A stretch of DNA of 64,000 nt, from the NCBI RefSeq assembly GCF_029201445.1, contig NZ_CP102381.1, positions 372,001 to 436,000 on the forward strand, in the 5' to 3' direction. This document shows, piece by piece, positions 7,259 to 47,285 of this stretch. The notes beneath the pieces are model-generated. The model was not told the DNA's origin. It searched no databases and saw nothing but the letters and a program-made list of their open reading frames with translations. Numbering within the stretch: position 1 is the stretch's first letter; every line of letters starts with the position of its first letter. Made by a program: the position numbers and the translations under genes. Source of the DNA: Thiomicrorhabdus lithotrophica (GTDB lineage: Bacteria > Pseudomonadota > Gammaproteobacteria > Thiomicrospirales > Thiomicrospiraceae).

Positions 7259-7969
7259 ATGAAATTACTCTTGGTTGAAGACGAACCTTTACTCATTGAT
7301 AACCTACAACAACGTTTCAAACGTTTAGGGTATATTGTCGATACTGCATTAGACGGTGAACAAGGTTTATACCTGGCTTTAGAATTTGAATACGATTTAA
7401 TTATTTTAGATTTGGGTTTACCAAAGTTACCAGGCCTGGTAGTTTTAGAAAAAATTCGTGAAGCAGGTAAAGTTTTGCCTATTCTAATCCTTACTGCACG
7501 TAATTCATGGCAAGAGCGCGTAGAAGGTCTAAAAAAAGGGGCGGATGATTATCTTGGTAAGCCTTTCCATTTTGAAGAGCTACTAGTACGATCCCAAAGT
7601 TTACTTAAACGTCATCAACCGAAAAACACTCAAATCTGTTTTAAGCCTACACATATCGACGGCATTACAATTGTCTGTTTAGATACACTATCGAAATCAC
7701 TAATAATCAATCAAAAAGCTCAAACGCTAACACCAACAGAATTTCATCTTGCAGAAACTTTTTTTGCTCATCCTAATCAGGTGTTTTCCAAACAATCTCT
7801 TATCGATAAAATTTCAGATAGTAGCGAAGAAAAAGATGAAAATATTATCGAAGTATATATTCGTCGACTACGAAGTTATTTAGGCAAAGAGTCTATTCAG
7901 ACATTACGAGGACAAGGTTATCGATTAACCTTAGCAGATAGATTGGTAGATAGCGAGGAGGATAAATGA
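7259..7969 (+). CDS. OmpR/PhoP-type response regulator
   Basis: A 236-residue response regulator with a receiver domain (acidic pair VEDEP near residue 7, phospho-acceptor Asp in LIILDLGLP, Lys in YLGKPFHF) and a C-terminal winged-helix DNA-binding domain (PTEFHLAETF, VYIRRLRSYLG, TLRGQGYRL). It overlaps the histidine kinase gene by 4 bp and precedes a metal efflux operon, so it probably senses metal stress and activates that operon. A CAGGCCTG palindrome lies inside the gene and encodes PGLV next to the phosphorylation site. Confidence 0.93.
   Translation: MKLLLVEDEPLLIDNLQQRFKRLGYIVDTALDGEQGLYLALEFEYDLIILDLGLPKLPGLVVLEKIREAGKVLPILILTARNSWQERVEGLKKGADDYLGKPFHFEELLVRSQSLLKRHQPKNTQICFKPTHIDGITIVCLDTLSKSLIINQKAQTLTPTEFHLAETFFAHPNQVFSKQSLIDKISDSSEEKDENIIEVYIRRLRSYLGKESIQTLRGQGYRLTLADRLVDSEEDK
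7428..7441. repeat. Palindrome copy 1 (14 bp)
   Basis: TACCAGGCCTGGTA inside the response regulator gene, read as P-G-L-V. Part of the 18-copy CAGGCCTG family. Confidence 0.9.
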
Positions 7970-9333
7970 AGTCTCTGCAGCATCAATTATCGGTCATGTT
8001 AGGCTTGAGTGTTGTTTTGGTATTTCTACTGTTTTGGTGGTTATCTATTACGACGATTCATAAGGTAACTGAAGATTATGTGTTGACCCGTTTAAGCCAC
8101 GATAGTGATGCCATCGTAAAAAATCTTCACCTTAAAGATGATAGATGGTTTCTAGATAATGAAAATCTGGAACCTATTTACTCTCAAGCCAATTCTGGAC
8201 ATTACTTTGTGGTAAAAGTGGCAGAACAAACTTTTCGCTCCTTGTCACTAAATCAATACCCATTATTTTTACCAAAATTAAAAGGTGATGAACCCAATGA
8301 GCTCGTATATGAAACATTAGGTCCATTAATGGAACAGGGTCAGGAAGTAAAAATGCCTAAGCTGTTAGTCTACGCCAGCAAAAAAATTAAAAACAACCAA
8401 ACCATTACATTATATGTTGCTGAAGATCATTCACCTATTCAAGAGAGCTTAAACCGATTTGATTGGCTATTTGGGACCTTTGCCCTAGTTACATTGGTCA
8501 TACTCTATCTATTACAAAAGTGGGTTTTACAACGTACGTTTAAACAGTTAACGCCTTTAGAAAGACAGTTAAAAGAGTTAGAGTTTACTCATCAATTGAA
8601 TATTGATCAGAATCAATACCCTAAAGAGGTGGCTTCATTAATAGAGGCTTTACGTTATGCATTGAATCAAGCAGGTAAGCAGTTAAAAACTTCACGCCAG
8701 TCAAATGCCAATTTGTCTCATGCGCTTAAAACACCCTTAAATTTGGCCTTTCAAATTTTAGAACAAATTCAGTTAGATTCTTCTAAAGAAAACTTAAAAC
8801 GAGTAGAAAAACAAGTACAAGAACAGTTAAGCAAAATCTATCAGTTAATTGAACGAGAATTGAGAAAAGCCCGTATTGCTTCAGATGCACCTTTATTAAA
8901 CCGGTTTGATTTTGAGACGGATTTTCAAGAGCTTGTTTTGACATTAAAACAACTTAATCAAAACAAAGCGATTCAAGTAGAAATTAATTTTTCAAAGTTA
9001 CCAGGCCTGGTAATTGAAAAAGAAGATGGGTTTGAATTGTTTGGTAATTTATTAGATAACTCATATAAGTGGGCAAAATCTAATATTGTGATTTCATCAG
9101 AGCTGAATGCCAATGTATTGTCTCTGATTGTGGAAGATGATGGGCCAGGTGTGACTGATGATGATTTGAACTCAATTCAGGCAAGAGGGTTTCGTGCAGA
9201 TGAAACTACGCCTGGTCATGGTATTGGGTTATCTATCGTTAAAGATCTGGTAGAAGCCTATTCAGGTGAAATTGAATTTTCACATTCTAATTTAGGCGGC
9301 TTAAAGATTAAACTGGATTTTAAAACGCATTAG
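7966..9333 (+). CDS. Sensor histidine kinase, PhoQ/QseC-like
   Basis: A 455-residue inner-membrane sensor kinase with two spans (about residues 8-28 and 168-186) enclosing a periplasmic sensor of about 135 residues. The cytoplasmic part has an H-box NLSHALKTPLNLAF (His near 252), an N-box GNLLDNSYKWA, and ATP-binding motifs EDDGPGV and GHGIGLSIVKDL. The H-box reads HALKTPL, the form seen in PhoQ-like kinases. It is translationally coupled to the regulator (ATGA overlap). The signal is likely a periplasmic metal ion, inferred from the downstream efflux genes; no clear metal-ligand cluster is visible in the sensor. Confidence 0.92.
   Translation: MKSLQHQLSVMLGLSVVLVFLLFWWLSITTIHKVTEDYVLTRLSHDSDAIVKNLHLKDDRWFLDNENLEPIYSQANSGHYFVVKVAEQTFRSLSLNQYPLFLPKLKGDEPNELVYETLGPLMEQGQEVKMPKLLVYASKKIKNNQTITLYVAEDHSPIQESLNRFDWLFGTFALVTLVILYLLQKWVLQRTFKQLTPLERQLKELEFTHQLNIDQNQYPKEVASLIEALRYALNQAGKQLKTSRQSNANLSHALKTPLNLAFQILEQIQLDSSKENLKRVEKQVQEQLSKIYQLIERELRKARIASDAPLLNRFDFETDFQELVLTLKQLNQNKAIQVEINFSKLPGLVIEKEDGFELFGNLLDNSYKWAKSNIVISSELNANVLSLIVEDDGPGVTDDDLNSIQARGFRADETTPGHGIGLSIVKDLVEAYSGEIEFSHSNLGGLKIKLDFKTH
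8998..9013. repeat. Palindrome copy 2 (16 bp)
   Basis: TTACCAGGCCTGGTAA inside the histidine kinase gene, read as L-P-G-L-V. Confidence 0.9.
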
Positions 9334-9377
9334 ATGGTATTTTCTTATATGAAATGACTATTAAACTTTACGCTGAT

Positions 9378-9399
9378 TTTCAGTTTCATTTCAGTTTCA
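9378..9399 (+). promoter_or_regulatory. Tandem 11-bp direct repeat, likely response-regulator site
   Basis: TTTCAGTTTCA occurs twice in direct succession, about 45 bp before the efflux operon start. An 11-bp spacing places two half-sites on the same DNA face, the arrangement bound by OmpR/PhoB-family dimers such as the regulator encoded just upstream. The repeat is seen directly; the binding protein is inferred. Confidence 0.7.
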
Positions 9400-9443
9400 T
9401 TTTTTAGAATGTTCTCCATTATGGAATATTCTAGGAAGTCACA

Positions 9444-10646
9444 ATGAAAACTCTTCGCGCTTTTAGCTTTGTTAGTCTCCTTTCTGCAGGCTTTGTATTA
9501 AGTCTTCCTGCACATGCAGCAACCTATTCTGATTTATTAAAAAATGTATTGGCTAATCAGCCTGAACAAGCTATTTTACAAGGTTATGATGCGCTTGAAT
9601 CTAGCGCTTCGGAAAGTAAAAAAAGTTGGTTTTCAGGTAACACAAACCTAATCATCGCGCATGAAAACGATAGCTTAACCGGTGATTTAGATAAGCAAAA
9701 ATGGCAAATTGGTGCTGAAGTGCCTTTATGGTTACCAGGCCAGAGACAGAGTCAAAAAAATCTTGCTGTAGGCTTTGGTGAGTTAAATACTAACCAGGCC
9801 TCGGTATTAAAATTACAAGCTTCGGCGCTGTTACGTGATTTAGTTTGGCAGTATCGTCAGGCACAAGTAAAAACCAAATTAGCACAACAATCTGTTGAAC
9901 AAGCCCAAAAGCTTCAGAAGCTAATCACCGTTTTAGTGAATGTTGGTGAGAAGCCAAAGATTGATGCTTTATTGGCAGACAAAGCATTATTAGCTGCGCA
10001 GTCAAACTTGTTAATGGTTGAAAACGAATTTACAACCGCACAAAATCGCTATCAGTATTGGACAAAGACGAATGACTTACCTAAGCCTCTAGTGGAAAAG
10101 TTAGTTAAGTTTGACTTAGACAATCATCCGGCACTTAATCAGTTAAACGCACAACTAACCGTGTTGAATGCTGAATATCAAAACCTTAAGGCAACGCAAA
10201 AAGATAATCCTGTTTTCTCTTTTGGTGGTTTTCAAGAAGATGATCAAGGCATGTCTCCAAATACCTCTTTATATGCACAAATTTCTTACCCAATTGGAAG
10301 TAACCCAACTAAAAAAGTAGAAACGGCTAAGCACAAAACCACTGTTTTGCAGAAAGAAGCGGAAATTAAACGTTTTGAGTTGGAACTGAAGAACCAATTG
10401 TTTGCTGCGGAGCAGAAGGTCAGTGTATCTAAACAACAATTAAACTTGATTGATAAAGAGATGCAACTGGCTGCTCAAACTTTAAAGCTAGCTACTCAGA
10501 CTTATAAAGCCGGTGAAAGTAATATCCAAACATTAGTAAATGCGCAACAACAGTTTTTAGACAGCAAATTACAGCAAGCATTAACACAAATTGAACTTAC
10601 AACAGCGATTGCTCATCGCAACCAAATTGCAGGAGTATCTCTATAA
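9444..10646 (+). CDS. Outer-membrane efflux protein (TolC/CzcC family)
   Basis: A 400-residue outer-membrane factor with a Sec signal peptide (basic MKTLR, hydrophobic core, cleavage probably after AHA near residue 25). The body is helical and Gln/Ala/Lys-rich with two repeats typical of the TolC fold. It forms the exit duct of the tripartite efflux pump completed by the next two genes. The stop codon is adjacent to the ATG of the adaptor gene (1-bp overlap), showing operon structure. Its promoter region contains the tandem 11-bp repeat. Confidence 0.88.
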   Translation: MKTLRAFSFVSLLSAGFVLSLPAHAATYSDLLKNVLANQPEQAILQGYDALESSASESKKSWFSGNTNLIIAHENDSLTGDLDKQKWQIGAEVPLWLPGQRQSQKNLAVGFGELNTNQASVLKLQASALLRDLVWQYRQAQVKTKLAQQSVEQAQKLQKLITVLVNVGEKPKIDALLADKALLAAQSNLLMVENEFTTAQNRYQYWTKTNDLPKPLVEKLVKFDLDNHPALNQLNAQLTVLNAEYQNLKATQKDNPVFSFGGFQEDDQGMSPNTSLYAQISYPIGSNPTKKVETAKHKTTVLQKEAEIKRFELELKNQLFAAEQKVSVSKQQLNLIDKEMQLAAQTLKLATQTYKAGESNIQTLVNAQQQFLDSKLQQALTQIELTTAIAHRNQIAGVSL

Positions 10647-11824
10647 TGCAAATTTCTTACCTTCTAAAATCGAACGCAATTCTTAAGTCTACTAAGTTAT
10701 CTACTTTTGCAAAAAATATAACTGTTGCGATTGCATTAACAACCAGTCTGTTTGTAAACGCTTCACAAGCTTCTAATACTGGGTTACCAGAGATTAAGTT
10801 AACGCCTGATCAGATGAAGGCCTTAGCTATTGAAACAGACGCTTTAAAACCTGTTTCAAGCTATCCAAGCATAGAATATGTTGCACAAAGCATTGTGCCA
10901 TTAAATCAACGTTATGCAGTAACAATGCCAGTTGATGGTCAAGTGTTAGAGCTGTTGCATTTTCATGGTAACGTTAAAAAGGGCGACGTTATTGCAACGA
11001 TTTACAGTGCAGAATTGTTAAAAATGCAAAGTGCTTTGATTGCTACATTGGCTGATTACCAAGCGGAAATGTCGGCGTTAAATCGTGCTAAAAAGTTGAG
11101 CCAAACAGGTGCTGTTTCCAGTAAGCAACGTCAGCAGTTAGAAGCGAATGTTAAAAAGCTAGCTCAAACCAAATCTCAGCAAAAGTTAGAGTTAATTTCT
11201 ATTGGTATGGATTTAGAATTAGTCGAGCAATTAGAGTCAACACAAAAACTGCAGTCGGCTGAGCTAATGATTAAAGCCCCTGTGTCTGGTGAGTTATTTG
11301 ATGTACAAGTTCAATTAGGTCAACGTTTAATGATGCAAGATGCGCTAATTTATATCGCAACGATTGATCCCATCGTAATTGATGTTGAAGTACCGATTGA
11401 GCAGTCTAAGCAAATTATTGATGGTCAAACAGTTAGTTTAACCAATACCGATTTAACAGGCCTGGTCTATCACATGGCAGATTTTGTCAATCCAAGAACA
11501 CAGTCTGTAGAAGTGCATACTCGTTTTGATAATCCTGATTTTTCAATTAAACCTGGGCAAACGTTTAAATTGCAATTTAACTTTGAGCAAGAGGCTTTTA
11601 AAACTCTGATTGGTGCGTTAACTGTAGTAGATAACCAAACCATTATTTTTGTTCAACAAGCAGAACAAATTAAGGCTGTAGCCATTAAAGTCTTACAGAC
11701 TCAAAACGGTTTAGTCTATTTCGCTCCCTTGCAAGCTGGAACTCTAAGCTCACAAACTATGGTTGTTGTTCATGGCGCATCTAGCCTTAAAAATAGTCTG
11801 ATGGCAGAAGAGGGTGAGGAATAG
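10646..11824 (+). CDS. Efflux RND periplasmic adaptor (CzcB/CusB family)
   Basis: A 392-residue membrane-fusion protein. An N-terminal hydrophobic signal/anchor (about residues 22-42) is followed by a barrel-sandwich lipoyl half (VDGQVLELLHFHGNVKKGDV), a helical hairpin rich in Lys/Gln (about 125-190), the second lipoyl half (IKAPVSGELFDVQVQLGQ) and a beta-barrel domain. It links the inner-membrane pump to the outer-membrane channel. No Met- or His-rich metal-binding extension is seen, so the substrate is not shown by this protein. Confidence 0.88.
   Translation: MQISYLLKSNAILKSTKLSTFAKNITVAIALTTSLFVNASQASNTGLPEIKLTPDQMKALAIETDALKPVSSYPSIEYVAQSIVPLNQRYAVTMPVDGQVLELLHFHGNVKKGDVIATIYSAELLKMQSALIATLADYQAEMSALNRAKKLSQTGAVSSKQRQQLEANVKKLAQTKSQQKLELISIGMDLELVEQLESTQKLQSAELMIKAPVSGELFDVQVQLGQRLMMQDALIYIATIDPIVIDVEVPIEQSKQIIDGQTVSLTNTDLTGLVYHMADFVNPRTQSVEVHTRFDNPDFSIKPGQTFKLQFNFEQEAFKTLIGALTVVDNQTIIFVQQAEQIKAVAIKVLQTQNGLVYFAPLQAGTLSSQTMVVVHGASSLKNSLMAEEGEE
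11457..11464. repeat. Palindrome copy 3 (core)
   Basis: CAGGCCTG inside the adaptor gene, read as T-G-L-V; right flank GT matches the longer consensus. Confidence 0.85.
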
Positions 11825-11826
11825 CC

Positions 11827-14800
11827 ATGAATAGATTAATTCAGTTTTTTCTCACCCAGCGTATATTTGTGCTGTTAGTGATTTTTGCCCTAATTTCGGG
11901 TGGTTGGATGGCGTTTCAAAAAACGCCTATTGATGCCTTTCCTGATGTTTCTCCAGTACAGGTGAAAATGATTTTTAAAGCGCCTGGTATGACACCAACG
12001 GAAGTAGAGCAGCGTGTTATCGCGCCACTTGAACAAGAGCTGTTGGGTATTCAAAAGGTGACCTTGTTGCGCTCTTTGGCTAAATACGCCATTGCTGACA
12101 TCACGTTAGATTTTGAAGAAGGTGCAGACATTTACTGGGCGCGCCAACTGGTGGCAGAGCGGTTAAGTGGTGTTGATTTGCCTAAGGGTGTAATGGGTGG
12201 AATGGCGCCTTTATCTACGCCGTTGAGTGATATTTTCATGTTTACCATTGATGGTGATTCACTTAACAATATGGAAAAACGTGATTTATTGGATTGGGTT
12301 ATTCGTCCAGCGTTACGTTCAGTACCGGGAGTGGCAGATGTAAACGCGTTGGGTGGTTTGGTTCGTATATTCGCTGTTAAGCCCGATTTTAATCAGCTAC
12401 AAGCGTTTGAGATTTCGCTAGCTACGTTAATTGATAAAATTGAAACACATAACCAAAACGATGGTGCAGGTCGTGTTAATCAAGGTGAAGAAGTTCTATT
12501 AGTTAGAACGCCTGGTAATTTAACCAATATTGCTGATATTGAAAATATCATCGTCGAATATGAGGGTAATCGTCCTGTTTATGTAAAAGATTTAGCTAAA
12601 ATAGAAATAGACTCTTTATATCGTAATGGTGCAGTAACTCAAAATGCTCAAGAAGCTGTTCAGGGTATTGTTATGGCGCTTAAAGGTGCTAACGCTAGGG
12701 ATGTTATTGCTGGCGTAGAAGCACGCCTTGTAGATGTGCAGCGTGCATTGCCTGAAGGTATTACTCTAGAGGTGTTTTACAATCGTAATGACCTGATCAC
12801 TCAAGCGATTGAAACGGTTTCAGGCGCTTTAACCGAAGCTGTAATATTGGTAATTATTGTCTTACTGATCTTTTTAGGGAATTTACGTGCTGCTTTAACC
12901 GTTGCTTTGATTTTACCGCTGGCGGCTTTGCTTACCTTTATTTTGATGAAAGAGTTTGGATTATCTGCCAACTTAATGTCTTTAGGAGGTTTAGCGATAG
13001 CGGTAGGAATGCTGGTTGATGCGGCCGTAGTGGTGGTAGAAAACATCGTGACCCATCAAGAAAAAGACAAAGCCGGGTTACCTAAATTACATATTATTTA
13101 CCGAGCAGTGCAAGAGGTTTCTGTGCCGGTAATCTCGGGTATTTTAATTATTATGACGGTATTTTTGCCGTTGTTAACGCTAGAAGGTTTAGAGGGTAAG
13201 TTATTTGTACCAGTTGCCTTAACCATTATTTTTGCTTTGGGTAGCGCTCTAATCCTGTCTCTAACCATTATTCCAACTTTAGCTTCATTCATGCTAGGCA
13301 AGCCGAGTCATAAAGAACCATGGTTAGTTGAAAAGTTGCTTAAAGTGTATAGACCAGCCCTAACCTGGAGTTTAGATAACAGTAAGAAAGTGATTTCAAT
13401 TGCCCTGGTTGGTCTGCTGTTCGCAGGATTTGTTTACACCCAAGTAGGTAAAACGTTTATTCCAGAAATGGATGAGGGTTACATCATTGTTCAGGTTGAA
13501 AAGTTGCCATCGATCAGTCTTAAAGAGACATTGGTAATGGATAAACAGGTTCAAAATCATCTGCTTGAAAAAATTCCTGAGATTGATCGTATTATTGCAC
13601 GAGTAGGTTCGGATGAGCTTGGTTTAGATCCCATGTCTTTAAACGATACCGACAGTTTTTTAGTGTTAAAGCCAAAAGAAGAGTGGCGAATGAACTCTAA
13701 AGAAGAACTGATTGATGAGATTCGTACCAGTTTAGAACATCATTTTCCGGGTGTGAACTTCGCGTTTACTCAGCCAATTCAAATGCGAGTGGATGAAATG
13801 CTTACCGGAGCGCGCGGCGATGTGGCTATCAAGATATTTGGTGATGATCCTGCTCAGTTAAACGAAGTGGCTAAAACCTTAGTTGAAACCGTTAGTAAAA
13901 TTGAAGGGGCTGAAGATGTCTTTACCCCTAAAAATGAAGGGTTACGTTATTTGCAGTTAGATATTAACCGCGAAATGGCCGGTAAATTAGGTTTGAGTGT
14001 GAATGATGTGCAAACCATTTTAAGAACTCAAATTAACGGACTAGAAGCCGGTATTATTTATCAAGGGATTCGTCGTATTCCTTTGATGGTAAGAGCGCCG
14101 GAAGCCTATAAATCATCTAAACAAGAGATGTTACAGCAGCCAATTGCTTTAGATGATGGCACAACCGTTTTACTCAGTCAGTTAGTGAATGCGAATGAAG
14201 TTGAAGGGCCTGTTTCTATTCAGCGTGAACAGAGTAAGCGTTTTGCGGTAGTGGTCTCTAATGTAAAAGGTCGTGATTTAGTTGGGTTTGTAGAAGAGGC
14301 TAAACTTAAGGCGGCTGAGATGAAAATTCCAGCAGGTTACTACTTTGAGTGGGGTGGAAAGTTTGAAAATCAACAACGTGCTGCGGCTAAGTTAGCGATA
14401 GTTGTACCGATTGCTTTGATTCTAATTTTCATTATTTTGTTCAGTACATTTAAGTCGGTTTCACAAGCCACTATGATTTTGACTAACGTGCCTTTTGCCT
14501 TAATTGGTGGAATTAGCGCCCTGTGGATAACTGGTGAATATCTCTCTGTACCTGCTTCAGTAGGGTTCATTGCTCTGTTGGGTATTGCCGTGCTAAATGG
14601 CGTGGTCATGATCTCTTACTTTAACCAGTTAGCTGCAACAGGCCTGTCTATTACTGAAGTGGTGATGGAAGGCGCAATGCGCCGATTACGACCTGTACTA
14701 ATGACGGCCAGCATTGCTGCATTAGGTTTGGTTCCCTTAGTGTTTGCTACGGGTCCTGGGTCTGAGATTCAACGACCTTTAGCGATTGTAGTGATTGGTG

Positions 14801-14901
14801 GATTGATTTCATCAACGCTATTAACGTTGCTGATTTTGCCGATATTCTATAGATTGTTTGGGCAGGGAACACAGCTAAACTATTTGAAGAAAGGGGGCTG
14901 A
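11827..14901 (+). CDS. Heavy-metal RND efflux pump (CzcA/CusA family)
   Basis: A 1024-residue RND transporter of the heavy-metal efflux (HME) class with 12 predicted spans and two large periplasmic loops. It begins with the typical FFLTQRIFVLLVIF span. The fourth span contains AIAVGMLVDAAVVVVENI; this AxxVGxxVDAA form resembles CusA-type (Cu/Ag) pumps more than the DFGxxVDGA form of CzcA. A periplasmic segment QMRVDEMLTGARGDVAIKIFG is more CzcA-like. Substrate is therefore open between divalent and monovalent metals. It is 2 bp after the adaptor gene and 1 bp before the DUF3240 gene. Confidence 0.92.
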   Translation: MNRLIQFFLTQRIFVLLVIFALISGGWMAFQKTPIDAFPDVSPVQVKMIFKAPGMTPTEVEQRVIAPLEQELLGIQKVTLLRSLAKYAIADITLDFEEGADIYWARQLVAERLSGVDLPKGVMGGMAPLSTPLSDIFMFTIDGDSLNNMEKRDLLDWVIRPALRSVPGVADVNALGGLVRIFAVKPDFNQLQAFEISLATLIDKIETHNQNDGAGRVNQGEEVLLVRTPGNLTNIADIENIIVEYEGNRPVYVKDLAKIEIDSLYRNGAVTQNAQEAVQGIVMALKGANARDVIAGVEARLVDVQRALPEGITLEVFYNRNDLITQAIETVSGALTEAVILVIIVLLIFLGNLRAALTVALILPLAALLTFILMKEFGLSANLMSLGGLAIAVGMLVDAAVVVVENIVTHQEKDKAGLPKLHIIYRAVQEVSVPVISGILIIMTVFLPLLTLEGLEGKLFVPVALTIIFALGSALILSLTIIPTLASFMLGKPSHKEPWLVEKLLKVYRPALTWSLDNSKKVISIALVGLLFAGFVYTQVGKTFIPEMDEGYIIVQVEKLPSISLKETLVMDKQVQNHLLEKIPEIDRIIARVGSDELGLDPMSLNDTDSFLVLKPKEEWRMNSKEELIDEIRTSLEHHFPGVNFAFTQPIQMRVDEMLTGARGDVAIKIFGDDPAQLNEVAKTLVETVSKIEGAEDVFTPKNEGLRYLQLDINREMAGKLGLSVNDVQTILRTQINGLEAGIIYQGIRRIPLMVRAPEAYKSSKQEMLQQPIALDDGTTVLLSQLVNANEVEGPVSIQREQSKRFAVVVSNVKGRDLVGFVEEAKLKAAEMKIPAGYYFEWGGKFENQQRAAAKLAIVVPIALILIFIILFSTFKSVSQATMILTNVPFALIGGISALWITGEYLSVPASVGFIALLGIAVLNGVVMISYFNQLAATGLSITEVVMEGAMRRLRPVLMTASIAALGLVPLVFATGPGSEIQRPLAIVVIGGLISSTLLTLLILPIFYRLFGQGTQLNYLKKGG
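14638..14647. repeat. Palindrome copy 4 (10 bp)
   Basis: ACAGGCCTGT near the end of the RND pump gene, read as T-G-L-S. Confidence 0.85.
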
Positions 14902-14902
14902 A

Positions 14903-15205
14903 ATGACAGCTGTTATTTTAAAACTTGTGATAGATGAAGGCGTCTTTGCAGCTGTATCAGATAGCCTATTAGTCTTTGAAAAAACACCAGTCGAATTTAA
15001 TACCTTATCGATTCGTTCATATAGTAATGAGCATCAATTGGAAGGTATAAAAGAACAGGTTGCAGGGTATCTTGGAAAAGTTCAGATAGAAATTCGTACT
15101 ACTCAGGAAGCTTATAAAGATATCTTGAGTTTTCTAAAAGCACACCATCCAAAGCTAGAGTCTGATTATTGGGTTGTACCCGTGCTTGATTCTGGAAAGT
15201 TGTGA
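14903..15205 (+). CDS. DUF3240 family protein of efflux operon
   Basis: A 100-residue soluble protein with no signal peptide, matching the DUF3240 type found directly after CzcA-like genes. It has a compact alpha/beta pattern resembling small ferredoxin-like regulatory domains (PII-like), but no nucleotide-binding loop can be recognised by eye. The start ATG 14903 follows the pump stop by 1 bp, with AAGGGGG as ribosome site, so it is co-expressed with the pump. A role in tuning or metal sensing for the pump is only inferred from position. Confidence 0.75.
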   Translation: MTAVILKLVIDEGVFAAVSDSLLVFEKTPVEFNTLSIRSYSNEHQLEGIKEQVAGYLGKVQIEIRTTQEAYKDILSFLKAHHPKLESDYWVVPVLDSGKL

Positions 15206-15280
15206 TTGCTGAAGAATGGTGTGATTAAAATCACCACACCCCGTTAGGGGATAAAAAGGCCTGGTCGTTTTCTAAGTTAT

Positions 15281-15288
15281 CAGGCCTG
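15281..15288. repeat. Palindrome copy 5 (core, intergenic)
   Basis: CAGGCCTG in the gap between the convergent efflux operon and metY; right flank GT matches the consensus. A near copy (AAGGCCTG) lies 25 bp to the left at 15256-15263. Confidence 0.85.
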
Positions 15289-15319
15289 GTTGTTTAATGT
15301 AGGTTTAATCTATTGTGAA

Positions 15320-16597
15320 TTAAACAGAAGATTTTAAAGCTTGTTCTAAGTCTTCTAAAATATCATCAATATGTTCAATACCAATCGATAGTCTCACCAT
15401 CTCAGGTGTTACGCCAGCTGACTTTAACTCTTCATCATTTAACTGACGGTGGGTTGTTTCTGCTGGAATACTGGCCAAAGATTTGCAATCACCAATGTTA
15501 ACTAAACGTAAAACAAGTTGAAGCGCATCATAGAACTTAATGGTTCCATCTCGTCCAGATTTCAAACCAAAACTTAAAATGCCAGAGGCTTTACCTTTCA
15601 TATATTTTTGCGCAAGCGCATAATCTTTATGACTTGGCAGACCTGCATAGTTTACCCAAGAGACCAATTCATGGTTTTCTAACCATTCAGCTACTTTTTG
15701 AGTGTTTTCACAAATACGTTCCATACGTAAAGCCAATGTCTCTAAGCCCATTAATAACTGAAAGCCACTTTGTGCAGATAATGCCGCACCCATATTACGC
15801 AAAGGTACAACTCGGCAACGTGCAATAAAGGCTGCCGCGCCAAAGTCTTCGGTATAGGTAACACCATGATAAGAAACATCAGGTGTATTCAGTAAAGGAA
15901 AGCGTTCCGCATTTTCAGCCCAAGGAAATTTACCCGAGTCAACAATGACACCACCAATGGTTGTGCCGTGCCCACCAATGTATTTAGTGGCTGCATGAAT
16001 CACAATATCCGCGCCATCATCAATAGGGCGCCATAAAGTAGGTGATGCAACCGTACTATCTACAATTAAAGGGATGCCATGCTTGTGAGCAAGATTGGCC
16101 AAACGTGCGACATCAGCAACGCCGCCAGATGGATTACCAATGGTTTCACAGTAAATAGCTTTGGTATTAGCATCAATTTTTGCGGCTATTTCATCATTAC
16201 TAGCATCTTTATTAAAGAAGCGTGCTTCAATTCCTTGGCGAGGTAGTGTGTGAGCAAATAAATTGTAGGTTCCACCATAAAGCTCACTGGCACTTAAAAA
16301 GTTGTCGCCAGTTTCGGCAATGGTTTGCAGTGTATAAGTAATTGCAGACATGCCAGAAGCAACCGCTAAGGCGGCAACCCCTCCTTCCATTTCAGCCAGA
16401 CGAGTTTCAAGCACAGCGTTAGTCGGATTCATGATTCGAGAATAAATATTACCCGCTACTTTTAAATCGAATAAATCGGCAGCATGTTGAGCATCATCAA
16501 ATGTAAAAGAGGTTGTTTGGTAAATCGGTACGGCCGCTGACTTAGTTGTTTCTTCAGATGAATAGCCACCATGTAGCGCAATGGTTTCAAGTTTCAT
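15320..16597 (-). CDS. metY: O-acetylhomoserine sulfhydrylase MetY
   Basis: A 425-residue PLP enzyme of the Cys/Met metabolism family. It contains the YSRIMNPTNAVLETRLAEME motif, a serine/glycine phosphate-binding stretch VASGMSAITY, and the PLP lysine in IHAATKYIGGHGT. The length and the segment VDSGKFPWAENAERFP fit O-acetylhomoserine aminocarboxypropyltransferase, which makes homocysteine directly from sulfide, rather than cystathionine gamma-synthase. Direct sulfhydrylation suits a sulfide-rich lifestyle. It is transcribed alone; the upstream 110 bp shows no obvious SAM riboswitch. Confidence 0.92.
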   Translation of the reverse strand: MKLETIALHGGYSSEETTKSAAVPIYQTTSFTFDDAQHAADLFDLKVAGNIYSRIMNPTNAVLETRLAEMEGGVAALAVASGMSAITYTLQTIAETGDNFLSASELYGGTYNLFAHTLPRQGIEARFFNKDASNDEIAAKIDANTKAIYCETIGNPSGGVADVARLANLAHKHGIPLIVDSTVASPTLWRPIDDGADIVIHAATKYIGGHGTTIGGVIVDSGKFPWAENAERFPLLNTPDVSYHGVTYTEDFGAAAFIARCRVVPLRNMGAALSAQSGFQLLMGLETLALRMERICENTQKVAEWLENHELVSWVNYAGLPSHKDYALAQKYMKGKASGILSFGLKSGRDGTIKFYDALQLVLRLVNIGDCKSLASIPAETTHRQLNDEELKSAGVTPEMVRLSIGIEHIDDILEDLEQALKSSV

Positions 16598-16708: not shown

Positions 16709-17401
16709 TTAAAGTTGAAAGTCACGGATGGTTTGCAACGTAAGAGACTCTTCATGTTGAACTTTATGTACAGGAAGGTTTGTCCAGTTTTCTAGCCCTT
16801 GGGCGTGATTTGTTTCGTTGCTAAAGTTTAAGATAATTGAATGCGCCTTTAACCCCGCTTGTTCTATGGCCGCAAGACTAAGTAGGGTATGGTTTATACA
16901 GCCTAACTGGTTTTTAACCACTAAGATAACAGGCAGTCCAAGTGCTTGAGCTAAGTCTTTATTTAATCCATCTGAACAGATAGGGGAATAAAACCCGCCT
17001 GCACCTTCAACAAGAAGGAAGTCACCTTCTTCCAGTTGAGAGCTTGCTTGGCATGCAGTAAGCAAGTCTTGGGTGGATATTACCAGGCCTGCTCGTTCTA
17101 TCGCTGTTTGCGGTGAGATAGGCGGTTCATATTGATAAGGACAAATGGTTTGTAAAGATTCATTTGACTGACAGGACTGCTGTAAAAACAAGGCGTCCTC
17201 ACTCAGTAAGCTACCATCGGCTTGCTTTATACAGCCTGAAGCAATGGGCTTACGGGGTATGACCTGGTAGCCTTTTTGAATCAACGTATGAGCAATGCAG
17301 CCTGCAACGTAGGTTTTTCCTACATCGGTGTCGGTGCCTGTAATAAAAAAACCACCAGGCGAATTACCAGGCCTGGTGGTTTTATTTAACGATTCATTCA
17401 T
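16709..17401 (-). CDS. bioD: Dethiobiotin synthetase BioD
   Basis: A 230-residue ATP-dependent enzyme that closes the ureido ring in biotin synthesis. The P-loop FFITGTDTDVGKTYVA begins at about residue 18; PRKPIASG and LVEGAGGFYSP are further family motifs. The only plausible start is ATG at 17401, because no ATG, GTG or TTG lies between it and the P-loop. Residues 8-17 (TTRPGNSPGG) are extra relative to most BioD proteins and are encoded by the palindrome/hairpin at 17351-17380. It is 5 bp after purC on the same strand; bioA lies elsewhere (31.3 kb). Confidence 0.92.
   Translation of the reverse strand: MNESLNKTTRPGNSPGGFFITGTDTDVGKTYVAGCIAHTLIQKGYQVIPRKPIASGCIKQADGSLLSEDALFLQQSCQSNESLQTICPYQYEPPISPQTAIERAGLVISTQDLLTACQASSQLEEGDFLLVEGAGGFYSPICSDGLNKDLAQALGLPVILVVKNQLGCINHTLLSLAAIEQAGLKAHSIILNFSNETNHAQGLENWTNLPVHKVQHEESLTLQTIRDFQL
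17094..17101. repeat. Palindrome copy 6 (core)
   Basis: CAGGCCTG inside bioD, read on the minus strand as A-G-L-V; the left flank TTAC matches the consensus. Confidence 0.85.
17345..17380 (-). terminator. Terminator-like hairpin within the first codons of bioD
   Basis: On the minus strand ACCACCAGGC and GCCTGGTGGT form a perfect 10-bp inverted repeat with a 10-base loop, followed at once by seven T. This has the form of an intrinsic terminator, yet lies between codons 8 and 20 of bioD, about 25 bp after the purC stop. It could end most purC transcripts or attenuate bioD. Structure is seen; function is inferred. Confidence 0.6.
17366..17377. repeat. Palindrome copy 7 (12 bp)
   Basis: ACCAGGCCTGGT in the bioD N-terminal codons, read as T-R-P-G, one of only two genic copies outside the G-L frame. 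It overlaps one arm and the loop of the bioD hairpin. Confidence 0.9.
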
Positions 17402-20482: not shown

Positions 20483-20508
20483 TAAACCTACCAGGCCTGG
20501 TAGGTTTA
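20483..20508. repeat. Palindrome copy 8 (26 bp, intergenic)
   Basis: A perfect 26-bp palindrome centred on ACCAGGCCTGGT, 23 bp after the gph stop. It is the longest member of the family and could fold into a 13-bp hairpin, but no T run follows. Confidence 0.9.
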
Positions 20509-22823: not shown

Positions 22824-22843
22824 ACGCCTTGTAGGAGTTGGAA

Positions 22844-23878: not shown

Positions 23879-23894
23879 TTACCAGGCCTGGTAA
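23879..23894. repeat. Palindrome copy 10 (16 bp, intergenic)
   Basis: TTACCAGGCCTGGTAA in the 34-bp gap between trpD and the ybaN-like gene, 12 bp before its start, where it may hinder ribosome binding. Confidence 0.9.
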
Positions 23895-23906: not shown

Positions 23907-24293
23907 ATGTTACATATTGTTAAACGTCAGATGCACTTAATTCTAGGGAGTGTGTTTTTTCTAACAGGCCTGGTAGGAATTGTTTTACCCATCTTGCCAA
24001 CAACGCCATTTATGATTTTGGCGGCAGGGTGTTTTGCAAAAAGTTCTCCTCGTTTTCATCAAGCGCTATTAAATAACCGTTGGATTGGACAAGATTTACA
24101 GCGCTGGGAAAGAGAACGCACCATGTTACGCATTACTAAAATACGCGCGACCTGGGTGATTGTCATCATGTTCTCAATTTCTATTGCGATATTGATGGGT
24201 AAGTTCTGGATACAAGGCATGCTGGTTGGAATTGCAGTAATCCTGTTATTCTTCCTGTGGCGAGTGCCAGAGAGTAAAAACGAATCTCAATAA
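23907..24293 (+). CDS. DUF454 (YbaN-like) inner-membrane protein
   Basis: A 128-residue membrane protein of the DUF454/YbaN family. Two hydrophobic segments near the N-terminus (about 10-45) contain the family signature LPILPTTPFMILAAGCFAKS; two more lie near 79-115. Its function is unknown in general. It sits between trpD and trpC, so it is probably transcribed with the trp genes, but there is no known link to tryptophan. No strong ribosome site precedes ATG 23907; palindrome copy 10 is there instead, and copy 11 falls inside codons 20-22. Confidence 0.85.
   Translation: MLHIVKRQMHLILGSVFFLTGLVGIVLPILPTTPFMILAAGCFAKSSPRFHQALLNNRWIGQDLQRWERERTMLRITKIRATWVIVIMFSISIAILMGKFWIQGMLVGIAVILLFFLWRVPESKNESQ
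23965..23972. repeat. Palindrome copy 11 (core)
   Basis: CAGGCCTG inside the ybaN-like gene, read as T-G-L-V, only 74 bp after copy 10. Confidence 0.85.
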
Positions 24294-28523: not shown

Positions 28524-29764
28524 TGAAAAATCTGAATTCTGAATTTTCAGTGGAGCAGTTGGTGGGTGAAGAGCTTGAGCAGTTAGAACAGCATTTTGCC
28601 GAGCAAACACATCCGGATGAATTAGAGCAGTTTGATAGGGCTTCTCTAAAAGAGTTGGTTGCTGAGCACGAAACCCCTTTTATGGTTTTGGATTTGGAAG
28701 AGGTTGAATATCAGTACCTCGCTTTACAAGCTGCGTTACCCGGGGTTAAGTTGTTTTATGCCGTTAAGTCGTTGTCACATCCATCACTGATAAAGCGTTT
28801 GAAAAATCTAGGTAGTCAGTTTGACTTAGCTACTACAGGTGAAGTGGAACTAGTAAAGGGGTTGGGGGTGCAAGGTGAAAAATGTATTCACACTCACCCA
28901 ATTAAAAAAGACAAAGATATAAAAGCGGCGTTAGAGTTTGGTTGCCATCGCTTTGTAGTGGATAATCCGGCTGAAGTCCTTAAATTCATTCCTTATAAAG
29001 ACCATGTTGAGCTGTTAGTTCGTGTCAGCTTTCGTAGTCAAGATGCGGTGGTAGATTTATCACGTAAGTTTGGTTGTGCATTGGAGGAGTTACCAGGCCT
29101 GGTGAATTTGGCAATCGAAAATGATTTAACTGTGTCAGGCTTATCATTTCATGTGGGTTCGCAGTCGTTGTCTCCAATGGCCCAGGTCAATGCGATTAAA
29201 GCCTCCGTTCATGCAATGAATGAAATGACGCATGTTCATTGGAAGTGGTTAGATATTGGCGGCAGTTTTCCGGTTTCTTATCAAGGCCCAGTAACGCCAA
29301 TTGAAGATTTTTGTGCGCCTCTGATGGATGCGTTAAAAGAACTTCCTGAAGATATTGAAGTGTTTGCAGAACCAGGTCGATTTATCTCAGCACCAGCCAT
29401 GATTGAAGTTATGAGTATTATGGGTAAAGCTAAGCGCGGTGCGCGTATATGGTATTACTTGGATGATGGAGTTTATGGTGCGTTAAGTGGTCAGATGTTT
29501 GATCATGCAAAATATCCCATTTCACCACTAAAGCCAGTTGATCCAATGGGGGATTTTTATCCTAGTGTATTAGCTGGTCCAACTTGTGATAGTGTGGATG
29601 TAGTAGATGAAGATATTGAGCTGCCTGAATTACAGGTCGGCGATATTATGGTTGCCAGACAAATGGGGGCTTATACCATTGCATCAGCTACCGAGTTCAA
29701 CTATTATCCTAAACCTAAGGTTGTGGTTGTTGAGGATTTGATGGACCACACAGACGATAATTAA
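28523..29764 (+). CDS. Fold-type III PLP decarboxylase, probable ornithine decarboxylase
   Basis: A 413-residue enzyme of the alanine-racemase-fold (group IV) decarboxylases. The PLP lysine is Lys82 in FYAVKSLSHP; FHVGSQ, GGSFPVSY, EPGRF and the catalytic Cys355 in GPTCDSVDVV are intact. The speDE context points to ornithine (or lysine/ornithine) decarboxylation to putrescine. The first 45 residues are very acidic and Glu/Gln-rich and are not part of the usual fold. Palindrome copy 12 encodes LPGLV near residue 192. Confidence 0.9.
   Translation: MKNLNSEFSVEQLVGEELEQLEQHFAEQTHPDELEQFDRASLKELVAEHETPFMVLDLEEVEYQYLALQAALPGVKLFYAVKSLSHPSLIKRLKNLGSQFDLATTGEVELVKGLGVQGEKCIHTHPIKKDKDIKAALEFGCHRFVVDNPAEVLKFIPYKDHVELLVRVSFRSQDAVVDLSRKFGCALEELPGLVNLAIENDLTVSGLSFHVGSQSLSPMAQVNAIKASVHAMNEMTHVHWKWLDIGGSFPVSYQGPVTPIEDFCAPLMDALKELPEDIEVFAEPGRFISAPAMIEVMSIMGKAKRGARIWYYLDDGVYGALSGQMFDHAKYPISPLKPVDPMGDFYPSVLAGPTCDSVDVVDEDIELPELQVGDIMVARQMGAYTIASATEFNYYPKPKVVVVEDLMDHTDDN
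29092..29103. repeat. Palindrome copy 12 (12 bp)
   Basis: ACCAGGCCTGGT inside the ornithine decarboxylase gene, read as P-G-L-V. Confidence 0.9.
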
Positions 29765-30216: not shown

Positions 30217-30236
30217 TTTAACCAGGCCTGGTTAAA
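30217..30236. repeat. Palindrome copy 13 (20 bp, intergenic)
   Basis: TTTAACCAGGCCTGGTTAAA between the osmC-like gene and its terminator. Confidence 0.9.
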
Positions 30237-31326: not shown

Positions 31327-32646
31327 TTATAGTTGACTGCTTTTTTGAATAACGTTGATAACCGATTTAATCAGGCCTGTTGTTAAATCATTTAGTTGGT
31401 TTTGCGGGATATTGTAGGCTGGCATGGTGTAGATAAGTTTGCCAAAGGGTCTTAACCAAACGCCGCTTTCTAATGCTTCACCTTGAATGTCAGCGCCTAA
31501 GTGATCTTTCTCCAGCTCAACAACGCCAATGGCGCCTAAAACTCTTACGTCTTTTACACCATCTATTGCCTTGAGCGGAATTAACATCTCATTAAAGTGA
31601 GTTTCGATACGCTTGATATTGTCTTGCCAAGGAGCTGTAAGTAATACATCAATGTTGGCAATCGCCGCACGACAGGCTAACGGGTTTGCCATATACGTTG
31701 GGCCGTGCGCAAGAATGCCTGGTTCTCCACTGCTAATTGTTGCACTGATTTTACTCGTGGCCAATGTTGCGGCCAGAGTGATATGACCACCTGTGAGTGT
31801 TTTTCCTAATGTAAGAATATCAGGTGAAATTCCAGCCCATTCACAAGCGAATAGCTTTCCTGTTCGACCAAAGCCAGTTGCAATCTCGTCGGCAATCAGT
31901 AAAACATCAAATTCATCACATAATTCGCGTAGCTGCTTTAGATAATCTGGGCGATAGAAACGCATACCTCCAGCCCCTTGAACAATCGGTTCAATGGTAA
32001 CCGCAGCAATTTCATTGTGATGATTTTCTAAAACGGCTCTTAGGTCACGAATATCGTCATTGTTTGATTCTATATCAAACCCCATCTCTGGTGCTGGGGC
32101 AAAGAAGTGTTTTGGAAGTACTTCAGAAAACAGACTGTGCATTCCATTGATTGGGTCGCAAATAGCCATAGTCGCGAAAGTATCGCCATGATAAGCGTTG
32201 TTCACGCTGAGTAATCTGTTTTTACCAGGCCTGCTTAAGCTAATCCAGTATTGCATGGCCATTTTTATTGCAACTTCCATGGCTACAGAGCCAGAGTCTA
32301 CAAAAAAGACTTTTTCTAATCCTTCTGGCGATAGTTTTACTAATCTTTTAGCAAGTTCTATCGCAGGTTCATGGGTGAATCCACCAAACATAATGTGCGG
32401 CATGGTATCAATTTGGTCATGCATTGCTTGCTGAATTTTTGGATGGTTGTAACCATGCAGCGCCGCCCACCAAGATGACATTCCGTCTACAACTTCGCGT
32501 CCGTCGGATAAGGTGATGATGGAACCTTGTGTTTTTACAACACCGATTGCAGGAGTGGTGCTAGGAAGTTTGGCATAAGGATGCCAAATATGTTCTTGGT
32601 CATAATCTAAGAGCTCATCCCAGTTTGGCGTAATCGAGTTATTCAT
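31327..32646 (-). CDS. bioA: Adenosylmethionine-8-amino-7-oxononanoate aminotransferase
   Basis: A 439-residue class-III PLP aminotransferase making diaminopelargonate in biotin synthesis. It starts with the typical DQEHIWHPYAKLPS; GREVVDGMSSWWAALHGYNHP, DSGSVAMEVAIKMA, LLIADEIATGFGRTGKLFAC and the PLP lysine in TLGKTLTGGHI follow. It lies 64 bp after truC on the same strand. Palindromes 14 and 15 are inside. The rest of the bio pathway, except bioD, is not in the window. Confidence 0.95.
   Translation of the reverse strand: MNNSITPNWDELLDYDQEHIWHPYAKLPSTTPAIGVVKTQGSIITLSDGREVVDGMSSWWAALHGYNHPKIQQAMHDQIDTMPHIMFGGFTHEPAIELAKRLVKLSPEGLEKVFFVDSGSVAMEVAIKMAMQYWISLSRPGKNRLLSVNNAYHGDTFATMAICDPINGMHSLFSEVLPKHFFAPAPEMGFDIESNNDDIRDLRAVLENHHNEIAAVTIEPIVQGAGGMRFYRPDYLKQLRELCDEFDVLLIADEIATGFGRTGKLFACEWAGISPDILTLGKTLTGGHITLAATLATSKISATISSGEPGILAHGPTYMANPLACRAAIANIDVLLTAPWQDNIKRIETHFNEMLIPLKAIDGVKDVRVLGAIGVVELEKDHLGADIQGEALESGVWLRPFGKLIYTMPAYNIPQNQLNDLTTGLIKSVINVIQKSSQL
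31372..31379. repeat. Palindrome copy 14 (core)
   Basis: CAGGCCTG near the 3' end of bioA, read on the minus strand as T-G-L-I. Confidence 0.85.
32226..32233. repeat. Palindrome copy 15 (core)
   Basis: CAGGCCTG inside bioA, read on the minus strand as S-R-P-G, the second genic copy outside the G-L frame; the TTAC left flank matches the consensus. Confidence 0.85.
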
Positions 32647-32693: not shown

Positions 32694-32709
32694 TTACCAG
32701 GCCTGGTAA
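32694..32709. repeat. Palindrome copy 16 (16 bp, intergenic)
   Basis: TTACCAGGCCTGGTAA immediately after the truC stop, between truC and bioA. Confidence 0.9.
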
Positions 32710-32710: not shown

Positions 32711-33445
32711 TTAGAGCTTGAGCTTGTTTAATGCATGTTGAAAGCTATTCTCTAAATGGCATTCAAGTAAGATTGGTTCAGATGTCTTAGGGTGAAGGAA
32801 TTGCAGCTGTGTTGCCGCTAAATACAAACGATGTTGACCAAGCCATTCACTAAAAAAATGGTTGTGATGTCGATCACCATACTTAGTGTCTCCAATAATC
32901 GGGTGTACGATATGATTCATGTGGCGGCGTAGTTGGTGTTTACGTCCTGTTCTAGGCTTAAGCTCAAGTAGTGAGTATCGTTGTTGCTCATAGCGTCCGA
33001 TTGTATGATTGACAGACGTGGTTGCTAAGTTTTTGTAGGCTGTTTCAGCTGATTGTGGTTCTAATTGTTCTCGTTTCATTTTTTCAGCGATTTTGTCGCG
33101 TTTATATTTAAGTGCATGTTCAATATGCCCTGACTCAGTCGCCCAGCCTCTGCAAATTGCTAGATAGGTTTTTTGTATCGTATGGTTCATAAATTGGTCA
33201 CTTAAGTTTCTGGCTGTTGTAGCGTCAAGCGCAAACAATAATAGACCTGATGTTGCTTTATCTAAGCGATGGATAGGAAAAACCTTTTGGCCGATAATTC
33301 CTTCTGTGAGTTGTACCGCAAATTGAGTTTCTTGTTTGTCAATTGGAGATCTGTGGACCAGCAGGCCTGCTGGTTTGTGAATAGCGACCATATATTCATC
33401 TTGATAAATGACAGATAAATTTTCTAATTGAAGTAAGGTTTGCAT
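32711..33445 (-). CDS. truC: tRNA pseudouridine(65) synthase TruC-like
   Basis: A 244-residue RluA-family pseudouridine synthase. The start (NLSVIYQDEYMVAIHKPAGLLVHRS in two parts: VIYQDEYMVAIHKPAG, LLVHRS) is TruC-like, and the catalytic Asp is in HRLDKATSGLLL. The GRKHQLRRHMNHIVHPIIGD motif binds RNA. The family splits into TruC, RluA, RluC and RluD; length and N-terminus without an S4 domain favour TruC, which modifies uridine 65 of tRNA. Palindrome 17 lies in the N-terminal codons. Confidence 0.85.
   Translation of the reverse strand: MQTLLQLENLSVIYQDEYMVAIHKPAGLLVHRSPIDKQETQFAVQLTEGIIGQKVFPIHRLDKATSGLLLFALDATTARNLSDQFMNHTIQKTYLAICRGWATESGHIEHALKYKRDKIAEKMKREQLEPQSAETAYKNLATTSVNHTIGRYEQQRYSLLELKPRTGRKHQLRRHMNHIVHPIIGDTKYGDRHHNHFFSEWLGQHRLYLAATQLQFLHPKTSEPILLECHLENSFQHALNKLKL
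33357..33374. repeat. Palindrome copy 17 (18 bp)
   Basis: ACCAGCAGGCCTGCTGGT inside truC, read on the minus strand as A-G-L-L-V, encoding part of the conserved KPAGLLVHR motif. Confidence 0.85.
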
Positions 33446-45900: not shown

Positions 45901-47189
45901 GAGAGGTTTCTGTAATTGATGAAGCTGGTCGTGAGCAAGAGCGATATAAGATTGGTTACGGTACTACATTGGCTGTAAGCGATGGTGGGAAAATTGCTTC
46001 TGGTGATATTCTTGCGCAGTGGGATCCGCATACTCACCCTGTTATTACAGAGGCAGATGGTAATCTTGCGTTTGGTAACTTTGAAGGTACTGTTGAAGAG
46101 CGTATTGATGATTTAACAGGTTTAACAACTCACGTTGTTAAAGATGCTAAAGAGCGTATGTCGACTGTTAAAGAAACACGTCCATACATTGCGTTAGTTG
46201 ATGATGCTGGTGAAGCAATTTGTTTTGCTGGAACACAAACTCCTGCGCTATATTACCTACCTGAAAATGCAATCGTCGTTGTTCAAGAAGGTGGCAAGGT
46301 CGGTGCTGGTGATGTACTAGCACGTATCCCGCAAGCTTCATCTAAAAACAAAGATATCACTGGTGGTCTACCACGAGTGGCAGACTTATTTGAAGCGCGT
46401 CAGCCTAAAGAGCCATCAATTATGGCAGAAGTGTCTGGTGTAATTGGTTTCGGTAAAGAGACTAAAGGTAAGCAACGTCTAGTTATCCTTCAGGATAGTG
46501 GAGAGCAGTATGAAGCTCTAATTCCTAAGTGGCGTACCGTTTCAGTGTTTGAAGGTGAGCGTGTTGAGAAAGGTGATGTTGTCGTTGACGGAAATCCAAA
46601 TCCACATGATATCTTACGTTTACTAGGTATTGAAAAGTTAGCTGAATATATTGTTGATGAAGTACAGGATGTATATCGTTTACAAGGTGTAAAAATTAAC
46701 GATAAGCATATTGAGACTATTGTTCGTCAAATGCTTAGAAAAGTTGAAGTTAAAGCTTCTGGTGATACAGGTCTTATCAAAGGTGAGCAGACTGAGTATG
46801 CTAAAGTTTTACAGTTAAATGAAAAAGCCCGTGAAGAAGGTAATGTGGAAGCAAGCTTTGAACGTGTGCTTTTAGGTATTACTAAAGCTTCGTTGGCAAC
46901 TGAGTCATTTATCTCAGCGGCATCTTTCCAAGAAACAACTCGTGTATTAACTGAAGCTGCAGTAAGCGGTAAGCGTGATACTTTAGTTGGTTTGAAAGAA
47001 AATGTTATTGTTGGTCGACTGATTCCAGCTGGTACAGGTTTTGCCTATCACCAAGCTAGAAAAGCGGCGAGTGAAAAATCAATGGATGAGCTACAAGCGT
47101 TTATGGGTTCTACAGAATCTGGTGAAGCGCAAGTAGCAGAAGAATCTGTTGTTGAAAATGTGAATGAGAGTGAAGGAGCTGAAGCCTAA
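42966..47189 (+). CDS. rpoC: RNA polymerase subunit beta prime
   Basis: A 1407-residue beta prime subunit. It has the N-terminal zinc ribbon ([19 protein letters not shown]), the catalytic [12 protein letters not shown], the trigger-loop region and a second zinc cluster ([16 protein letters not shown]). The C-terminal 30 residues are acidic and variable. It starts immediately after rpoB. Confidence 0.99.
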
Positions 47190-47215
47190 ATTAAATAAAT
47201 TCAAGTAGTTAATGC

Positions 47216-47244
47216 TTGACTTATTGACTTTAGGTCTCTAAAAT
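47216..47244 (+). promoter_or_regulatory. Promoter of the str operon
   Basis: TTGACT and TAAAAT with 17-bp spacing, about 90 bp before rpsL. A second TTGACT overlaps at 47224 with spacing too short to be used. Confidence 0.7.
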
Positions 47245-47277
47245 CCTCATTCCTAATTTGTGGGTCTGGTAAATTAC

Positions 47278-47285
47278 CAGGCCTG
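47278..47285. repeat. Palindrome copy 18 (core, rpsL leader)
   Basis: CAGGCCTG in the 5' leader of rpsL; left flank TTAC matches the consensus. It is the only copy in the right-hand half of the window. Confidence 0.85.

Follow-up and report, generated by a model that had tools for sequence, protein, structure and literature searches.

Neisseriaceae and Pasteurellaceae were described in a 2025 paper as the only families known to bear DNA uptake signals (PMC12616744). The uptake signal sequences (USS) of Pasteurellaceae and the DNA uptake sequences (DUS) of Neisseriaceae have more perfect than one-mismatch copies, show no orientation bias, prefer non-coding DNA while having many copies in coding regions, are somewhat regularly spaced, reach ∼1 copy per kb and are not palindromes; USS have AT-rich flanks one helical turn apart and are not insertions, and DUS are devoid of flanking motifs (PMC1626085). 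DUS also form dialects around a constant core, as well as inverted pairs that serve as terminators (PMC3630211). HIP1 (GCGATCGC), in turn, is a highly frequent palindromic octamer of cyanobacteria, for which a relation with an orphan methyltransferase has been proposed (PMC4390886). The subject here is another palindromic octamer, CAGGCCTG, present 18 times in a 64,000-nucleotide stretch of DNA (the window) that comprises bases 372001–436000 of the genome of a Thiomicrorhabdus (G000; 2,516,205 bp in a single contig). Its abundance, sequence context and distribution suggest that a DNA uptake signal is probably built around it. Whether it represents a third, independently evolved family of such signals, belonging to free-living sulfur-oxidising chemolithoautotrophs, is in our judgement evenly balanced; in that case an ancestral palindrome that could be read from either side would have given rise to several dialects, including an asymmetric, USS-like switch with an A tract on one side only. 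In the literature, CAGGCCTG is not described as an iterated element among the matches listed, which agrees with the statement of an earlier analysis of the bare letters (the sequence-only reading) that no named element with this core was known in the group; four of the papers listed contain its letters once each and, by their titles, deal with mammalian, fish or cell-culture topics.

Like the USS of Pasteurellaceae, the word occurs in hundreds of perfect and few one-mismatch copies and has dialects (PMC1626085, PMC12616744); its AT-rich flanks lie about one helical turn away, it appears in terminator-like inverted pairs, and its sites seem not to have been made by insertion (PMC1626085). Unlike USS, it has GGCC as its inner core (GCGG in USS), its likely ancestral form is a palindrome flanked weakly on either side, its density is about a third, and it belongs to another family. 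With the DUS of Neisseriaceae it shares dialects that track phylogeny and vary in a few bases, the core staying constant, together with inverted pairs resembling terminators (PMC3630211); it differs from DUS in its AT flanks and palindromic form, and no counterpart of ComP was found in 31 genomes of the genus. The resemblance to HIP1 lies in being a highly frequent palindromic octamer (PMC4390886), but the word is a different one, one of its dialects is asymmetric, and none of three methyltransferase families follows it.

Abundance, anatomy and origin of the copies

The 18 copies of CAGGCCTG in the window compare with a mean of 0.56 (maximum 4) in 100 dinucleotide shuffles, none of which reached 18. 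All the copies reported by the sequence-only reading were found, 17 of them at the exact coordinate; the one it placed at 17094 starts at 17084. Its estimate that base composition would yield less than one copy agrees with the shuffles, and the eight copies it saw extending to ACCAGGCCTGGT were recovered (8/18). It had also mentioned perfect palindromes of 16–26 bp: the longest, at 20492, is indeed of 26 bp, and the range found, over seven of the 18 copies, is 14–26 bp. The same division into 12 copies within open reading frames (ORFs) and six intergenic ones (15281, 20492, 23883, 30223, 32698 and 47278) was obtained, that at 47278 counting as intergenic provided that the ORF at 47260 truly begins later than its mechanically assigned GTG. 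The part of the window containing rpoBC and the ribosomal-protein region (33446–64000) has one copy only in 30 kb, a scarcity to be expected if there is no room for the word in conserved genes.

The excess extends to the whole genome of G000, in which 881 copies were counted, against two of the control word used for genome counts (CAGGCCTG read backwards). A 524-kb sample of this genome (21%, window included), used to analyse the anatomy of the sites, contained 171 copies, while an order-2 Markov model predicted 5.2. A genome-wide count near expectation, which would have refuted the sequence-only reading, was not obtained: the count is far above expectation, at a density of one copy per 2.9 kb.

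The half-site consensus of these 171 copies is a-a-n-t-t-A-C-C-A-G-G. Perfect copies outnumbered one-mismatch copies in 10 of the 11 genomes compared (171 vs 119 in G000, 33 vs 8 in G018 and 58 vs 19 in G023; G035 and G042 were represented by 39 kb each). One-mismatch words were at or below expectation in nine of the 11 (119 vs 120 expected in the 524 kb of G000), and exceeded it by 1.3 in G021. The flanks of this palindromic form, hereafter dialect A, show a weak preference for A 6–8 bases outside the octamer. Left and right flanks were mostly independent or weakly alike, with a correlation near the core of r = 0.18 (p = 0.0095) in G000 and of r = 0.59 (p = 0.0045) in G005, and a value of opposite sign in G023 (bases 3–5 outside the core, r = –0.35, p = 0.0045); the idea that an asymmetry was hidden in the flanks of the palindromic copies was thus abandoned.

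Copies outside ORFs amounted to 55 of the 171, in 10% of the DNA (p = 7e-16); the 116 within ORFs favoured one reading frame (75/34/7). When the 52 intergenic copies lying in clear gaps were sorted by the orientation of the adjacent genes, 18 were in convergent (7.2 expected), 30 in tandem (36.2) and four in divergent gaps (8.5), and the median distance to the neighbouring 3′ end was 34.5 bases. In a relative, G020, two inverted pairs have folding energies of –32.0 and –34.6 kcal/mol (z –7.0 and –7.9), with UUUUU after each of them; such pairs appear terminator-like. The 46 nt around the window copy at 20492 fold at –16.5 kcal/mol (z –3.6), and at this site G018 and G025 keep the core and have changed flanks that are yet still paired.

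When the window copies were aligned with ten relatives (the copy at 47278 lay outside the coverage), the same octamer was present at the aligned place in at least one relative for 13 of the 18, and in none of the aligned ones for those at 9002, 11457, 14639 and 30223. For 10 of the 12 copies in genes, a motif-free relative gave a gapless alignment, which indicates that the sites arise by substitution and disfavours the insertion of a small mobile palindrome. At 32226, where four close relatives carry CAGGCCTG, G023 has CCGGCCGG. In one 12-kb region of 70–73% DNA identity between G035 and G042, two sites in the alignable portions were common and each genome had private ones, gain and loss being indistinguishable there.

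Dialects and distribution among genomes

A total of 76 genomes were searched, 48 of the same family as G000 and 28 of other families in the class. The latter 28 genomes contained 0–222 copies of CAGGCCTG, which likewise does not refute the sequence-only reading. Within it, 24 genomes had 236–1173 copies and the other 24 had 3–74. Scanning named genomes for the longer form TTACCAGGCCTGGTAA rendered at least 80 loci; 67 of the 80 listed were labelled Thiomicrorhabdus, Thiomicrospira, Hydrogenovibrio or Piscirickettsiaceae, and the remaining 13 had other labels, one locus each. RpoB was matched in 43 of the 48 family genomes, and 30 loci were used to build a tree. In this tree of 30 genomes the bearers belonged to several genera, with motif-free branches scattered among them; G008 (8% contamination) and G023 are placed in it only tentatively, and G004, the second genome with dialect C (see below), is absent from it.

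Two other dialects were found, and GGCC is constant in all three. Dialect B was observed in G023, which has 1217 copies of CCGGCCGG (control, 22); none of the other 47 family genomes shows a comparable excess. When words were counted without a preset motif in 80 kb each of G003, G019, G023 and G024, CCGGCCGG stood out in G023 as a strongly iterated palindrome that extends to TTTACCGGCCGGTAAA. Dialect C has a non-palindromic word, CAGGCCGGGT, which occurs 596 times in G020, 346 times in G004 and at most 21 times in each of the other 46. The top word in 89.5 kb of G020 was CAGGCCGGG, with 24 copies where 1.1 were expected, extending to TGAACAGGCCGGGTA. In these 24 copies A was present in 58–83% at 6–9 bases before the core, and T in 62% at the 13th base, the other side showing no comparable tract. 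The dialect-C 10-mer had 21 perfect and 10 one-mismatch copies. Strand balance could be tested only for the non-palindromic dialect C, and CAGGCCGGGT was found in G020 288 times in forward and 308 in reverse orientation. The presence of dialect C shows that G020 had been wrongly taken for a motif-free genome; it also contains 74 copies of CAGGCCTG, and 20 of the backwards control.

No comparable excess of any of the three words was detected in 21 of the 48 family genomes. An unbiased word search in 15 of these, over stretches of 10–152 kb (only 10–57 kb in 12 of them; G001, G016, G022, G032, G038 and G041 were outside the search), revealed no comparable dispersed other word. A mild dispersed excess of the palindrome TATCGATA was noted in G003 (10 copies vs 1.0 expected in 80 kb; 15 in 152.5 kb), which could conceivably represent a fourth word, weak or young. 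G010 and G012 had apparent surplus words (CAGGCCTGGT and GGTGTTATC, respectively), which were discarded because they stemmed mostly from overlapping loci counted twice.

A probable uptake signal weighed against other explanations

If the word is an uptake signal, competent cells would prefer word-bearing DNA from outside, and the preferred fragments would recombine into the chromosome, so that the word would spread by biased replacement while mutated copies would be overwritten. Uptake preference and recombination would thus provide the drive, and the reader would presumably be a receptor borne by a pilus. A shift in the taste of this receptor would lead to a slow rewriting of the genome to a new dialect, and a loss of specificity to the erosion of the word. 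The ancestral form in the family was likely palindromic, ACCAGGCCTGGT between weak AT flanks, and from it one lineage would have moved to ACCGGCCGGT and another to the one-sided TTTnAAAAcTGAACAGGCCGGGT; intergenic copies may have been co-opted as 3′-end hairpins. An uptake signal is rated the likeliest explanation because the features of USS and DUS were found wherever they could be tested, the data on regular spacing giving no clear answer. Three possibilities had been offered by the sequence-only reading, namely a HIP1-like methylation element, an uptake signal and the binding site of a chromosome-organising protein; the second fits best, and methylation and an architectural protein are both disfavoured.

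Several observations weigh against an uptake signal. The density is one copy per 2.9 kb, as compared with ∼1 per kb for USS and DUS, and neither of these is a palindrome, unlike CAGGCCTG. Spacing was close to random (coefficient of variation 1.17 for the first 100 copies, or 0.87 after leaving out one 27-kb gap), and this gap could not be ascribed to a foreign island: it lacks CAGGCCTG because a giant gene with near-identical 312-base repeats lies there (G000 C1 ∼151,800–176,100; L131 11816 to L132 16126). In G005, one-mismatch copies (36, with 24.7 expected, an excess of 11.3) outnumbered the 21 perfect ones; of the 12 one-mismatch words, two occurred at almost double frequency in a 464-kb part of G000, and the dialect-C 9-mer had 24 perfect vs 41 one-mismatch copies. 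Genomes with low counts can still exceed the control (24 vs 0 in G028 and 64 vs 7 in G041), possibly as remnants of the word.

The search for a reader gave results of both kinds. In favour of an uptake signal, 28 of the 31 genomes examined in the genus have ComEC, the DNA translocation channel for competence (31 of the 32 in the genus were used for profile searches), the three misses being 79–92% complete; since bearers and non-bearers alike carry it, its presence cannot be the switch. ComP_DUS (PF16732), a model that describes the receptor of Neisseriaceae, gave no match above the cut-off in the 31 genomes, and ComN, proposed as another receptor, was not searched for. No prepilin group followed the motif in 12 genomes, according to a coarse grouping of 89 of 122 matches in which 63 fell into a single similarity group (12 matches were not in the grouping list and 21 were outside the loci examined). 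ATPases of the T2SSE family, sorted into score classes, were present in all 48 family genomes. G035 (840 copies) and G042 (1128 copies) had two each, and those listed fell outside the PilB and PilT classes (one match of G042 was not listed). This apparent poverty in pilus ATPases is the weightiest result against a pilus-based signal; one-mismatch words were not raised in these two genomes, and each of them has private sites. The presence of prepilins or pilus ATPases was likewise rejected as a switch, no gene set tracking the motif.

Some features of these gene systems were noted in passing. In G020, comEC is interrupted near residue 597 of its 865 (L199, G020 C1:78001–98000, positions 1–11826), and next to the break lies a prophage that carries a D12 methyltransferase as well as genes for tail and baseplate; the ∼10 kb of this prophage that were read contain no CAGGCCGGG. 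As G020 still has 596 dialect-C copies, the break looks recent. Large prepilin-like proteins (∼460–550 aa) are clustered beside ordinary ones in G000 (C1 2,031,412–2,037,874), and were seen in 9 of the 12 genomes. G003 has no GspE-class ATPase (its best T2SSE match is of the PilB class) and no prepilin match in the GspG-J-like cluster that is present in the other 11; its type II secretion system appears to have been lost.

The proposal that a nucleoid or chromosome-organising protein binds the octamer, each site being maintained by selection, is compatible with a mostly symmetric word that has AT flanks and is dispersed along the chromosome, and with the left-right correlation of the flanks in G000 and G005. 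It is nevertheless unlikely, because imperfect sites are not generally raised, unlike what is seen in the relaxed consensus of regulatory sites (PMC1626085), one genus has three spellings, of which the asymmetric one weighs most, 21 of the 48 family genomes have no comparable excess of any of the three words, and 116 of the 171 copies are in ORFs with a spacing near random. A drive acting without uptake, that is, a sequence-directed repair or recombination process converting near-matches into the word, would account for one-mismatch words being at or below expectation in nine of the 11 genomes, and for the motif and private sites of G035 and G042, which have no PilB- or PilT-class ATPase among the matches listed. 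We hold it to be distinctly unlikely: the AT tracts and the dialects fit a DNA receptor better, and no candidate gene was found. No enzyme is known to us that would create a word of 10–16 bases in this way.

A HIP1-like element, in which an orphan methyltransferase would mark GGCC or AGGCCT inside the word and repair or regulation would use the mark, is improbable. The word is, as in HIP1, an octameric palindrome in many copies, the relation of HIP1 with an orphan methyltransferase has been proposed (PMC4390886), and G000 carries two C5 methyltransferases and one D12. An orphan methyltransferase following the motif had been suggested as something to look for; profiles PF00145, PF02086 and PF01555, however, had no match in G014, G017, G021, G025, G027, G033, G039 and G043, eight motif-rich genomes with 409–904 copies that are 99–100% complete, and matches did occur in motif-free genomes. 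Methyltransferases of the C5, D12 and N4/N6 families, which do not follow the motif, were therefore rejected as its keepers (Type I and IIG families were outside this three-family search); in addition, dialect C is not a palindrome. Least probable of all, and by our estimate very remote, is a Chi-like or replication-polarity site: an octamer with ∼1 copy per 3 kb would suit it, and a palindrome could serve both directions, yet the asymmetric form has no strand bias in G020, the places listed in the first 163 kb of one contig are divided 14 vs 18 between the strands, and many close relatives have no comparable excess.

Should the octamer prove to be an uptake signal, it would be the third case, descended from a palindrome, spelled in several ways within one genus and lost repeatedly, and self-DNA recognition could be traced from symmetric to polar signals and through those losses. 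Why uptake signals evolve is an old question, and close pairs of genomes with different dialects, such as G005 and G020, would make the evolution of the receptor and the decay of the signal testable outside pathogens. Natural competence, and hence a genetic tool, would be predicted for Thiomicrorhabdus, Thiomicrospira and Hydrogenovibrio; the word 'competence' is absent from a paper on Hydrogenovibrio SP-41/XCL-2 (PMC6501319). If the uptake explanation fails, one would be left with an unexplained drive that needs no methyltransferase to fix a long word.

Window copies and minor observations

The 18 copies of the window are collected in the table, with the genes that surround them and the state of the aligned place in other genomes.

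Copies of CAGGCCTG in the window (window coordinates; no strand is assigned to the palindrome)
Position	Form	Context	Aligned place in relatives
7431..7438	ACCAGGCCTGGT, 14-bp palindrome	in response-regulator gene 7259-7969	same motif in G014
9002..9009	TTACCAGGCCTGGTAA, 16-bp palindrome	in histidine-kinase gene 7966-9333	no motif in G014
11457..11464		in HlyD-type gene 10646-11824	
14639..14646		in AcrB-type gene 11827-14901	
15281..15288		intergenic, between ORF end 15205 and ORF start 15320	common to G015
17084..17091		in AAA_26 gene 16709-17401	common to G014, G030
17368..17375		5′ end of AAA_26 gene 16709-17401 (minus strand)	also in G030, G015, G018 (alignment gapped for G030 and G018)
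20492..20499	26-bp perfect palindrome	intergenic, ∼32 bp past stop codon	
23751..23758		in glycosyl-transferase-family-3 (TrpD-type) gene 22838-23872	common to G030, G015; one mismatch in G014
23883..23890	TTACCAGGCCTGGTAA	intergenic	common to G030
23965..23972		in ORF 23907-24293	common to G030
29094..29101		in pyridoxal-phosphate (PLP)-decarboxylase gene 28523-29764	common to G025
30223..30230	20-bp palindrome	intergenic, past stop codon	
31372..31379		in class-III aminotransferase gene 31327-32646	common to G014
32226..32233		in class-III aminotransferase gene 31327-32646	CCGGCCGG in dialect-B G023
32698..32705	TTACCAGGCCTGGTAA	intergenic	common to G021, G014, G030
33362..33369	18-bp palindrome	in pseudouridine-synthase gene 32711-33445	common to G021, G030, G025
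47278..47285		just past ORF ending 47189 (which we take to be rpoC from gene order), in mechanical 5′ extension of ORF 47260-47703	

Two other kinds of repeated sequence came to light in the genomes searched. The first is an array resembling clustered regularly interspaced short palindromic repeats (CRISPR) in G019 (L035, C1:100001–120000, positions 9902–15745), with a 28-base unit, GCTCGCTGCCGCCAAGGCAGCTAAGAAA, and a 60-base period; 10-mers of the array occurred 96–98 times in 80 kb. The second is an abundance of G homopolymers in G029 (L235, C1:1–20000), where GGGGGGG was counted 33 times (overlapping counts) vs 1.7 expected, and to a milder degree in G011; these may be either phase-variable tracts or an assembly artefact.

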